64,000 nt of DNA from Pomphorhynchus laevis (taxonomy: Eukaryota; Acanthocephala; Palaeacanthocephala; Echinorhynchida; Pomphorhynchidae), in contig WNNJ02002070.1 of assembly GCA_012934845.2 (NCBI GenBank), positions 1 to 64,000 of the forward strand. The letters are read 5' to 3'. Of this stretch, positions 17,798-20,567 are shown in pieces. The notes under the pieces are model-generated. The model made no database searches, had not been told where the DNA came from, and saw nothing but the letters and a program-made list of their open reading frames with translations. The position numbers and the translations under genes are program-made. Position 1 is the first letter of the stretch. Every line of letters starts with the position of its first letter.

Positions 17798-17867
17798 CCT
17801 AGACGAGCTGATGGTAGCCGGCAGCACTCATCAGTAGGGTAAACTACCATCAGTTGTTTCGGCTGCC
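17798..17867 (-). ncRNA. Permuted hammerhead-like motif, family A unit 1
   Basis: Minus strand order: GGCAGC-C-GAAA-C, stem III 5' CTGATGGTAG, spacer TTTA, CCTA-CTGATGA-GT-GCTGCC, GG, stem III 3' CTACCATCAG, then CTC-GTC-TAGG. Stem I is CCTA/TAGG, stem II GCTGCC/GGCAGC and stem III 10 bp plus A-U and C-G at the core. All invariant hammerhead core residues (CUGANGA, GAAA, UH) are present, but the strand order is GAAA, CUGANGA, GUC. A folded activity is not shown. Confidence 0.55.
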
Positions 17868-18158
17868 TTGTGATATATTTAAAAGGCATCCCCGAGAATT
17901 TGTTACCGTAGTAGCATGGACATGGCCTCTTTTAACTAACAACGTGCTTTCCGGATCATCCTAATTTTATTCGGCAGGAATTTTAATTGCTGTCGCTGCT
18001 TGCTTTCTCACAGGATCCCTTTATAGGATAAGTTTTTATAATTTAATCACAGAATGTGTTCAACTGTGCTCCTGGAGCTAAAACGTTTCAGTTTCATAAT
18101 CGCAGATGCTGCCAAAAATCGGAGTTCGATTACATGCAGAGCAGACTTCCTTATCACT

Positions 18159-18229
18159 TCTAGACAAGCTGATGATAGCCGGCAACACCCATCAGTAGGG
18201 TGAACTACCATCAGTCGTATCGGCTGCCT
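18159..18229 (-). ncRNA. Permuted hammerhead-like motif, family A unit 2, mutated core
   Basis: Same layout as unit 1, 361 bp on, but GAAA is GATA and CTGATGA is CTGATGG, so the core is broken. Stem II is kept through a G-U pair (GGCAGC/GTTGCC). This looks like an inactive copy. Confidence 0.5.
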
Positions 18230-18539
18230 TGTGATATATTTTATAGGCAACTCCGAAAATTTGCTAACGTAAAATCATCATCATCGCCTCTTTTAACTAA
18301 CAACGTGCTTTCCGGATTATCCTAATTTTATTCGGCAGGAATTGTAATTGCTGTCGCTGCTTGCTTTCTCACAGGATCCCTTTATAGAATACGTATTTAT
18401 AATTTAATCGCAGAATGTGTTCAACTGTGCTGCGGGAGCTAAAAAGCTTAAGTTTCATAATCATAAATGTTGTCAAAAACCGGAGTTCGATTACGTGCAG
18501 AGCAGACTTCATATATAATAGTAATGCACGAATGTGCTG

Positions 18540-18790
18540 AGTAGACAACGGTCCAGGATTTCTTACGAAATACGACATTTATACTAAATGGTGTTGCTTG
18601 ATAGACTGGACTTCGATTCACGACTTTCAGTCACCATGTCACTTCTAGACGACCACTTCAGCATCGAAATGATGAGTACCCGGCAACACTCATCAGTAGA
18701 ATGAGGTACACACTGGTCGTTTCTGTTGCCTGTGTGACATTGTGAATAAAGTTTTGTGATAACTATAAAAACACCATATATATACACTAC
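18540..18790 (-). repeat. Family B repeat unit
   Basis: Shares with family D (20084-20695) the leader GTGTATATATGGTGT...TTTATAGTTATCACAAAA after a (TA)n tract, but lies on the opposite strand. Shares with family A the stretch around the hammerhead-like core. Another partial copy is at 21430-21625 and a short piece at 20763-20800. Confidence 0.75.
18643..18730 (-). ncRNA. Permuted hammerhead-like motif, family B
   Basis: Minus strand: GGCAAC-A-GAAA-CGACCA, spacer, TTCTA-CTGATGA-GT-GTTGCC, spacer, TGGTC-GTC-TAGAA. Stem I TTCTA/TAGAA, stem II GTTGCC/GGCAAC, stem III CGACCA/TGGTCG next to the A-U pair. The core is intact. Compared with family A, stems I and II have changed by compensating substitutions (TTCTA/TAGAA against CCCTA/TAGGA; GTTGCC/GGCAAC against GCTGCC/GGCAGC). 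Confidence 0.55.
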
Positions 18791-18796
18791 AAAGAT

Positions 18797-18850
18797 ATAT
18801 ATATATATATATATATATATATATATATATATATATATATATATATATAT
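18797..18850. repeat. (TA)n microsatellite
   Basis: Pure TA dinucleotide tract of about 54 bp between family B and the 351-bp array. The IYIYIY open frames it generates are artefacts. Confidence 0.98.
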
Positions 18851-19128
18851 CAGCATTCTATATATCCTCATCAGACTAAGAAATAGAACCGAATTATTCT
18901 TGCATTATTCAAAGTCGCTACGTATGCCCAGTCATCATATATATATTACAATAGAATTTTTCTATTGTAATATATGATATTGGTCATTTAGTGATCCCGC
19001 TGATGTTCATTACACTGAAAAGAATTCACTGCATTGCATTGACTTCGAAAGCGCAAGCTACGTCATGCAATTAGCATATAGTGAATTCTTTCTGCTTTAA
19101 TCTATATACAGTATGTTTTTCATGTGTA

Positions 19129-19193
19129 TACACAGTATTGCTGCAACTGATGAGGCTTCTCAAAGCCGAAACGGTACGCCGTCTTGCAGTGTA
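19129..19193 (+). ncRNA. Type I hammerhead ribozyme, unit 1
   Basis: Order: TACA, 8-nt bulge, CTGCAA (stem I 5'), CTGATGA, stem II GGCTT/AAGCC with loop CTCA, GAAA, stem III CGG/CCG plus A-U with loop TACG, GTC, TTGCAG and TGTA (stem I 3'). All core residues are consensus. Predicted cleavage follows C19183. The bulge in stem I facing loop II is the arrangement that gives natural hammerheads their fast tertiary fold. Confidence 0.93.
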
Positions 19194-19479
19194 GAAGCAT
19201 GAAATTCTCTATATATAGAGAAAAGCAGATAGGTGTAATAGCCAGTCCTGGTTGAATCAAACCTTTTATTTATTTATTGGACCTGCGAGGATCCCAGGCG
19301 GCGGTGCTTTTTCTATTGTAATATATGATATTGGTCATTTAGTGATCCCGCTGATGTCCATAACACTGAAAAGAATTCACTGCATTGCATTGACTTCGAA
19401 AGCGCAAGCTACGTCATGCAATTAGCAAATAGTGAATTCTTTCTGCTTTAATCTATATATAGTATGTTTTTCATGTGTA

Positions 19480-19544
19480 TACACTGTATTGCTGCAACTG
19501 ATGAGGCTTTTCAAAGCCGAAACGGTACGCCGTCTTGCAGTGTA
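19480..19544 (+). ncRNA. Type I hammerhead ribozyme, unit 2
   Basis: Identical architecture 351 bp downstream. Loop II is TTCA instead of CTCA and the stem I bulge has T for A at one site. Both changes are in loops, so all helices and the core stay intact. Predicted cleavage follows C19534. Confidence 0.93.
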
Positions 19545-19830
19545 GAAGCATGAAATTCTCTATATATAGAGAAAAGCAGAGAGGTGTAATAGCCAGTCCT
19601 GGTTGAATCAAACCTTTAATTTATTTATTGGTCCTGCGAGGAACCCAGGCGGCGGTGCTTTTTCTATTGTAATATATGATATTGGTCATTTAGTGATCCC
19701 GCTGATGTCCATTACACTGAAAAGAATTCACTGCATTGCATTGACTTCGAAAGCGCAAGCTACGTCATGCAATTAGCATATAGTGAATTCTTTCTGCTTT
19801 AATCTATATATAGTATGTTTTTCATGTGTA

Positions 19831-19895
19831 TACACTGTATTGCTGCAACTGATGAGGCTTCTCAAAGCCGAAACGGTACGCCGTCTTGCAGTGTA
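19831..19895 (+). ncRNA. Type I hammerhead ribozyme, unit 3
   Basis: Same architecture, 351 bp after unit 2. Core, stems I, II and III intact. Predicted cleavage follows C19885. Cleavage at successive sites would release unit-length 351-nt RNAs. Confidence 0.93.
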
Positions 19896-19969
19896 GAAGC
19901 ATGAAATTCTCTATATATAGAGAAAAGCAAATAGGTGTAATAGACAGTCCTGGTTGAATCAAACCTTTA

Positions 19970-20067
19970 ATATATATATATATATATATATATATATATA
20001 TATATATATATATATATATATATATATATATATATATATATATATATATATATATATATATATATAT
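19970..20067. repeat. (TA)n microsatellite
   Basis: About 98 bp of TA repeats joining the 351-bp array to family D. Confidence 0.98.
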
Positions 20068-20107
20068 CTTTATAGTGTATATATGGTGTCTTTATAGATA
20101 TCACAAA

Positions 20108-20178
20108 AGCAATCGAAACGCACCCTAACCACTTCATCCGACTGACAATGACTGCTGGGTGGTTAGGGGCGTCTCGGA
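20108..20178 (+). ncRNA. Permuted hammerhead-like motif, family D unit 1, mutated
   Basis: Same layout as unit 2, but CTGACAA lacks the invariant G8 and stem II has one A-C mismatch (AGCAATC/GACTGCT). Probably inactive. Confidence 0.45.
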
Positions 20179-20496
20179 GTGATACATTAGACTGATGAAG
20201 CTGATGATCGAAGTCCAGTTTTTTAGCAGCTCATATGGATTTTAAATCAATAGTAGCAAGTTTAGGCTCCTGGACACAGTTTCAAGCCATTTTTCGCACT
20301 ACCAATTTATAAAAAACGTATTCCTTTCGGAATCATGATAGAAATTCAGTGCCCTCGTAACCAACGGATACGCATTTGTGCATATAAAGAATAACTAGAA
20401 GGTCCACACACGCAACAAGCCAGTAAAAACGCTTTCTGCACCTGAGTTTTGTTTAGCATCGTGAGGAATTGCTGGTGTCTTTATAGTTATCACAAA

Positions 20497-20567
20497 AGCA
20501 GTCGAAACGCACCCTAACCACTTCATCCGACTGACGATGACTGCTGGGTGGTTAGGGGCGTCTCGGA
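20497..20567 (+). ncRNA. Permuted hammerhead-like motif, family D unit 2
   Basis: Order: AGCAGTC-GAAA, stem III 5' CGC-A-CCCTAACCAC, spacer TTCA, TCCGA-CTGACGA-T-GACTGCT, GG, stem III 3' GTGGTTAGGGGC, GTC-TCGGA. Stem I TCCGA/TCGGA (5 bp), stem II GACTGCT/AGCAGTC (7 bp), stem III 14 bp with one bulged A. CUGACGA is a permitted core because position 7 is free. The 26-nt loop holding the catalytic strand cannot reach the base of a 14-bp stem in cis, so pairing would have to be between units or molecules (inference). Confidence 0.6.

Follow-up and report, generated by a model that had tools for sequence, protein, structure and literature searches.

We analysed a window of 64,000 nt (the whole stretch, positions 1 to 64,000 of the forward strand of contig WNNJ02002070.1, assembly GCA_012934845.2) from the acanthocephalan Pomphorhynchus laevis, in which four adjoining repeat families (A, B, C, and D) occupy positions 17676-20701. 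The motifs GAAA, CUGANGA, and GUC occur in this order in each of families A (minus strand), B (minus strand), and D (plus strand), and judged by their letters and pairings these motifs are a hammerhead core in a non-circular order, type GCS. The best explanation of the data, and in our view probably the correct one, is that they represent type-GCS hammerheads of retrozyme-like repeats which assemble between repeat units.

The hammerhead core was divided into the blocks C, G, and S, and six orders of these were defined, by Eckert, Friedrich, Weinberg and Weinberg (NAR 2023; PMC10085705), who validated the SGC and CSG orders. The GCS order is represented in their account by one Caballeronia sequence with a cleavage rate of 0.014 per min and without covariation, and it is the sole order of the six whose biological relevance is called unclear there. 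An initial sequence-only reading of the window knew of no described class with the order seen in families A, B, and D, which must be corrected since the order is type GCS, a non-circular permutation of Eckert et al. (2023). The terms dimer, in trans, and intermolecular are absent from the main text of PMC10085705 or occur in reference titles only. Among the matches listed for the open-licence literature, terms for a GCS hammerhead were found only in PMC10085705; the expression "non-circular permutation" was later used with hammerhead in PMC11472068 and PMC13355120, in the matched parts of both on structure superposition, and the words permutation, permuted, and GCS do not occur in PMC11300833 on a pseudoknotted hammerhead. 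As far as these sources go, the GCS class was known as a possibility with one example, and the repeats described here are the first covariation-backed set that we found.

The coordinates of the motifs were rechecked in the window (Table 1). The motifs of families A, B, and D were located where they had been placed initially, and their order and the stem I and stem II pairs quoted for them are correct; the long stem III reported for family D was likewise found, although with 13 bp plus one bulged A instead of 14 bp. Five GCS copies of the window were scored, of which family D unit 2 alone is intact at every scored position. This unit reads, from 5′ to 3′, TATCAC, AAA, AGCAGT, C, GAAA, CGC-A-CCCTAACCAC, TTCA, TCCGA, and CTGACGA, followed by TG, ACTGCT, GG, GTGGTTAGGG-GCG, TC, TCGGA, and GTGATA, with TCCGA/TCGGA as stem I and ACTGCT/AGCAGT as stem II, and the layout of families A and B is identical. 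Just outside stems II and I a fourth helix, stem IV, had gone unnoticed; it is TATCAC/GTGATA in families A and D, abutting stem I in D unit 2, and TGTCAC/GTGACA in family B. In the family A copy stem I has 4/5 pairs only, and the family B copy contains a small extra hairpin within the 3′ arm of stem III. As in a hammerhead, the CUGANGA, GAAA, and UH strands are joined by stems I, II, and III at the core, and the blocks follow the order G, C, S with interruptions of at most one or two nt, as in type GCS. At the core junctions of clade 1, to which the families of the window belong, 2 nt separate CUGANGA from the 6-bp part of stem II and 1 nt precedes GAAA; a second clade, H, has no such nucleotides. 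The Rfam hammerhead models gave no match to families A, B, and D at E-values up to 10 over positions 17001-21600.

Table 1. Predicted features of the repeat cluster in the window.
Feature	Position	Strand	Remarks
Family A tandem array, ~2.3 units of 361 nt	17676..18510	-	3′ end runs into TA-rich repeat
Family A GCS hammerhead, core letters intact	17791..17875	-	predicted cleavage after C at 17802; one A.C mismatch in proximal stem III
Family A second unit, decayed	18152..18236	-	GAUA for GAAA, CUGAUGG for CUGAUGA
Family B partial unit	18514..18751	-	ends at TTATA
Family B GCS hammerhead	18637..18739	-	predicted cleavage after C at 18648; A for C directly before GAAA
Family C, three 351-nt tandem units	18957..19979	+	conventional type I (CGS) hammerheads
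Family C type I hammerheads	19139-19195, 19490-19546, 19841-19897	+	
Family D tandem array, 389-nt unit spacing	20084..20701	+	ends in (TA)n
Family D unit 1, decayed copy, same layout	20099..20184	+	CUGACAA for CUGANGA, one stem II mismatch
Family D unit 2, intact GCS hammerhead	20488..20573	+	stems and core scored; covariation alignments
D unit 2, stem IV 5′ strand	20488-20493	+	
D unit 2, stem II 3′ strand	20497-20502	+	
D unit 2, C and GAAA	20503, 20504-20507	+	
D unit 2, stem III 5′ arm	20508-20521	+	A bulge 20511
D unit 2, linker TTCA	20522-20525	+	
D unit 2, loop: stem I 5′ strand	20526-20530	+	
D unit 2, loop: CTGACGA and TG	20531-20537, 20538-20539	+	
D unit 2, loop: stem II 5′ strand	20540-20545	+	
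D unit 2, linker GG	20546-20547	+	
D unit 2, stem III 3′ arm	20548-20560	+	
D unit 2, TC	20561-20562	+	predicted cleavage after 20562
D unit 2, stem I 3′ strand	20563-20567	+	
D unit 2, stem IV 3′ strand	20568-20573	+	
Family B decayed fragment	21425..21607	-	

A descriptor for all six block orders was run on the window together with 28 fetched stretches (225 kb), where it matched 52 GCS (3 of which are one place repeated via overlapping stretches) versus 8 SCG, 1 CGS, 1 SGC, 1 GSC, and 0 CSG. Because the stretches had been picked by CUGANGA-based patterns, the other block orders in the same DNA are the fair control; in shuffled sets (20 shuffles) the number of GCS matches was 0.05 per set, and 0.05-0.15 per order overall. 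A later tally of 294 kb (L001-L008 dropped, stretches added, and a few small overlaps retained, e.g., L220 with L028) comprised 58 GCS, 8 SCG, 1 SGC, and 1 GSC, and 7/8 SCG matches were family C read a second way. An earlier strict version that required 4 bp of stem III beside the core had returned 1 GCS match in the window (family B) and 16 in the loci; it was relaxed because families A and D, which carry a bulge or mismatch beside the core, were missed.

For clade 1 we also used a pattern without pairing rule (GAAAC, 12-18 nt, TTYA, 5 nt, CUGANGA, 8 nt, GG) and examined the stems of its matches. Stems I, II, and proximal III all passed in 51/55 matches of the own loci (the 55 include overlapping stretches), in 0/54 of viral contigs, and in 0/118 of prokaryote contigs (GTDB; at least 118 matches), so that the viral and prokaryote matches were rejected. 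Stem II alone passed in 54/55, 0/54, and, among the matches listed, 2/118, respectively, and 47/55 own loci passed stem IV as well. The clade H pattern had 2 viral matches, which by eye lacked the H pairings and were excluded from the alignment of that clade. A wider pattern, GAAACN{18,36}BCTGANGAN{18,48}GTC, gave 10299 matches (control 304), which was not used as a count because most of the ~100 matches listed were, by eye, one non-GCS dispersed repeat.

Two motifs of other block orders were noted in passing. A single candidate of SCG (type III) order lies at 45934-46024 (+) with the stems GTGCCG/CGGTAC, TGCC/GGCA, and GTC/GAC. An abundant dispersed repeat (L012 2892-2960, L233) shows an SGC-like fit with CTGCTATG/CATAGCAG as stem III and GAGGAG/TTCCTC as stem I, and was rejected as probably due to chance (C.C at 10.1-11.1, one family).

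The home genome (249 Mb, 3242 contigs) contains 4255 exact matches of the clade 1 GCS pattern (2292+1963) and 2564 of the clade H pattern (1405+1159), whereas each reversed pattern has 0; these are counts of exact pattern matches, not of intact ribozymes. COX1-like fragments in which TGA is translated as Trp are compatible with an animal source, among others. In clade H, family H1 has the layout GGGTC, GAAA, CG, a 9-10 nt internal loop, GTCTGGG, T, and CAGCAG in its 5′ half and CTGATGA, GACCC, A, CCCAGAC, the internal loop, CG, TC, and CTGCTG in its 3′ half. Every stem of family H2 has letters unlike those of H1, and its cleavage site is UA. The arms and linkers of clades 1 and H are unlike, yet all hammerhead pairings are satisfied in both. 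At clade H loci (e.g., L222 and L235) the internal loop of stem III, GAAAUGUAG against UGAUURGUA, is conserved while the surrounding helices change.

Covariation was assessed in alignments for which CUGANGA and GAAA were required in clade 1, because a permissive parser yielded many chance rows. Among 64 distinct clade 1 rows, two-sided changes to standard pairs occur in each stem, with exchanges of AT/GC in stem IV, GC/AT and CG/TA in stem II, CG/TA and TA/GC in stem I, AT/GC in proximal stem III, and CG/GC in distal stem III. Compared with a null that preserved the tree and the substitution counts (500 simulations), 87.8% of the cells were paired (null mean 60.0%, maximum 70.8%) and 16 compensatory double changes, each within one branch, were counted (null mean 3.6, maximum 9). 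The percentage paired exceeded the null in every stem, the value of stem I being reached by 3/500 simulations and that of the others by none, and compensatory changes exceeded it in distal stem III (7) and stem IV (7), each reached by 0/500. A separate MAFFT alignment of 56/57 distinct clade 1 sequences (L218 excluded; 25 pairs, 5 of them in distal stem III) was 93.0% paired at slide 0 versus 28-49% with slid partners, and the 37 rows of clade H were 90.5% paired versus 31-45%. In all three alignments the stem letters vary between families while pairing is kept, as had been noted for the window. For the three hammerhead stems, on which the sequence-only reading had proposed a covariation test, covariation was thus found for whole stems in both clades, and for single pairs it was mostly not significant.

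Divergence was counted against the majority in BLAST-aligned copies of families A, B, D, and E. At the GAAAC and GTC positions divergence is lower (24/674) than in the rest of the unit (1396/21567; Fisher p 0.0013), and ribozyme positions outside the core motifs (436/6552) do not differ from it. The support from this constraint is only modest because sites and copies are not independent.

The GCS units behave like animal retrozymes, i.e., as small, mobile, non-coding tandem repeats. They measure 351-398 nt with a GC content of 0.41-0.44 in families A, B, D, E, and H1, and among the matches listed the tandem spacing is 351-398 nt in both clades; one stretch (L024) holds ten family E units at 357-358 nt spacing, a homogeneous array with intact cores. 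The count covers arrays with a minimum length of 150 nt from stretches that do not overlap, and windows for the array ends were set after inspecting these. The 3′ ends cluster in a single 3-7 nt window per unit in 11/21 arrays of family A, 8/18 of B, 11/14 of D, and 3/10 of E, hence 33/63 at one unit site, and these windows coincide with a TTATA site. In 31/63 arrays TATA or ATAT is found no more than 8 nt past the 3′ end, and BLAST may extend by a few bases into such flanks, whose TA-richness would also render target site duplications ambiguous. The 5′ ends are scattered, with at most 3/21, 3/18, 4/14, and 2/10, respectively, in a window of equal width. These array ends suggest target-primed reverse transcription at TA-rich sites from a circular or multimeric template. 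Six array pairs are head-to-head (one of them of family C) versus one tail-to-tail, and retrozyme-like arrays stand head to head with their 3′ ends outward at L013 2805-4388, L217, L011, L010, and L016. Head-to-head arrays give the impression of priming at both edges of a break within TA-rich DNA, which may have been the case for some of the insertions.

The animal retrozymes described by Cervera and de la Pena (NAR 2020; PMC7229834) share with the GCS units the tandem non-coding units of ~170-400 nt, the low GC content (under 50%), the occurrence as dimers to multimers, and non-LTR (long terminal repeat) mobility. They carry type I (CGS) hammerheads, in contrast to the GCS units; family C is of this conventional kind, although its hammerheads score under the Rfam cut-off (HH9, ~29 bits versus 52). 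Among the hammerheads, GCS-1 of Caballeronia peredens (PMC10085705) is comparable in its block order (GAAA, CUGANGA, cleavage strand) and in the double-pseudoknot topology as drawn for one molecule, a comparison made by published description and not by sequence. As described, GCS-1 is one bacterial sequence with no covariation, whereas here thousands of pattern matches in two clades with whole-stem covariation occur in tandem units of a eukaryotic genome, clade 1 with a conserved stem IV and fixed linkers. The type-SGC and type-CSG hammerheads of the same paper are likewise non-circular permutations of this core in which an extra helix joins stems I and II, but they have other block orders and came, by that account, from metatranscriptome, metagenome, and genome searches.

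Among the clade 1 families, A, B (short form), D, E, and F have stem III arms of 12-14 nt, the long form of B having a side hairpin, and the linkers comprise 4 and 2 nt in the clade of the window and 0-1 nt in clade H. In minimum free energy folds of monomers (RNAfold), stem IV encloses stem III in families A, B (short and long), D, and E, with some extra pairs in the loops; the window copy of A retains stem IV and distal stem III with other pairing near the core. In families A, B, D, and E the stem III hairpin alone has an energy between -21.5 and -27.4 kcal/mol, compared with -9.5 to -14.2 kcal/mol for the duplexes of stems I plus II; for the hairpin of F the value is -12.8, for that of H1 -16.6, and for that of H2 -18.4 kcal/mol. 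Stems II and III stack in the hammerhead fold (PMC10085705), and for a loop docking on its own base the 2-nt GG linker would have to span ~24 layers or 65 Å, an A-form estimate assuming 7+4+13 layers rather than a model. With the long stem III and the short linkers a unit cannot easily reach its own core, and assembly between units is therefore likely. The initial proposal that the loop cannot dock on its own base and acts between repeats is borne out to this extent, namely on geometry (folding and A-form span) only.

Under assembly between units, each 351-398 nt unit would form a hairpin consisting of stem IV (in clade 1), an internal loop that contains GAAA and UC, and stem III, whose apical loop would present the 5′ strand of stem I, CUGANGA, and the 5′ strand of stem II. 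When units are joined in a multimeric transcript, one of them may insert its apical loop into the internal loop of a second unit, which may belong to the same multimer or to a separate molecule, whereby stems I and II would form across units and complete the hammerhead core. Stem IV (in clade 1) of one unit and stem III of its neighbor would hold stems I and II together, all four helices joining at the distal ends of I and II in a four-way junction. Cleavage after H17 (UC or UA) would release monomers, which by analogy with retrozymes may be circularized. Because a monomer could not dock on itself, such circles would stay intact, and a reverse transcriptase primed at TA-rich sites of the genome might make repeated copies of them.

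Several results weigh against this reading. The predicted folds of family F and H2 monomers are not a clean hairpin of this form, which H1 monomers adopt only in part. In the 64 clade 1 rows compensatory changes were not above the null in stems I (0), II (2), and proximal III (0). A per-pair test similar to R-scape gave only 3/30 clade 1 pairs at E<0.05 and none when run over all 3160 pairs, which we attribute to the few independent families. Of the five shuffle measures for clade H, two were equalled in 18/500 and 500/500 shuffles, respectively. The copies in the 64-row and 56-row alignments were chosen partly by minimum pairing, which favors structure; the stem test on the pattern without pairing rule is free of this bias. 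Pair-breaking single changes numbered 146 in the 64 rows versus a null mean of 112, so that many copies are probably dead. The lower divergence of the core is not significant for CUGANGA (24/516, p 0.10) and is absent in family E, which runs the other way. Finally, the one GCS RNA reported in PMC10085705 cleaved in vitro as a single construct, and folding in cis may thus be possible.

Such a cis-folding GCS hammerhead is the alternative that survives best, though we regard it as unlikely: the unit would open most of stem III, and the freed arms would serve as linkers in a double pseudoknot. The GCS-1 cleavage is in line with this, and if only the 3 proximal pairs of stem III were kept, a simple A-form estimate reduces the span to ~37 Å, bridgeable by 12-13 nt; the 9-10 nt internal loop of clade H could serve as a hinge. 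A cis fold needs no distal stem III, yet distal stem III covaries and stays paired, its hairpin is the more stable partner relative to stems I plus II in the energies given above, the formed distal stem restores the long span across the GG linker, and the clade H linkers are just 0-1 nt. It is far less probable still that the copies are relics, i.e., an inactive satellite whose order was once functional and in which only the hairpin (stems III and IV) now matters; the many decayed copies (the pair-breaking changes, and the two decayed units of families A and D in Table 1) would fit, but stems I and II, unneeded for a hairpin, remain paired while their letters change between families, and homogeneous arrays with intact cores exist, such as that of family E in L024. 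Chance, or a structured hairpin merely resembling a hammerhead, is strongly disfavored and hardly credible: lone motifs of other orders occur (the SCG candidate and the SGC-like dispersed repeat), but 0/172 unrelated matches of the same sequence pattern pass the stems (the prokaryote part among the matches listed), reversed patterns give 0 in the home genome, and every hammerhead pairing is present in both clades despite their different arms and linkers.

We give about even odds to a stricter reading in which the length of stem III and the short linkers forbid self-docking and the hammerhead works only between units, remaining uncut as a monomer circle and being cut as a multimer. If true, the ribozyme would carry its own sensor for multimers, and its interlocked hairpins might make up chains or closed dimers that contain four-way junctions. 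A weak stem III is the reason why dimers are favored by the axolotl and small Penelope-associated hammerheads, which have the normal order, whereas the present repeats combine a long stem III and short linkers with a permuted order. The likeness lies in cleavage being favored with two units, the axolotl retrozyme hammerheads cleaving better in dimeric constructs (PMC7229834). In the same account the ribozyme of animal retrozyme circles is said to be probably blocked by some mechanism, and assembly between units, if true, would answer the question raised there of what keeps retrozyme circles from reopening. For the GCS order, the repeats provide copies by the thousand, covariation of stems, and molecules that are ready to be tested.

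Elsewhere in the window, an open reading frame (ORF) of 154 amino acids occurs in three copies that are 98-99% identical (688-1152 +, 12767-13231 +, and 40973-41437 -); it has no Pfam match, and we read its N-terminus as zinc-finger-like. An IS1595-like transposase ORF is located at 29367-30131 (+), and an ORF of the LINE (long interspersed nuclear element) type with endonuclease and reverse transcriptase at 31023-33242 (+). A U2 spliceosomal RNA gene or copy at 55332-55525 (-) marks the contig as eukaryotic.

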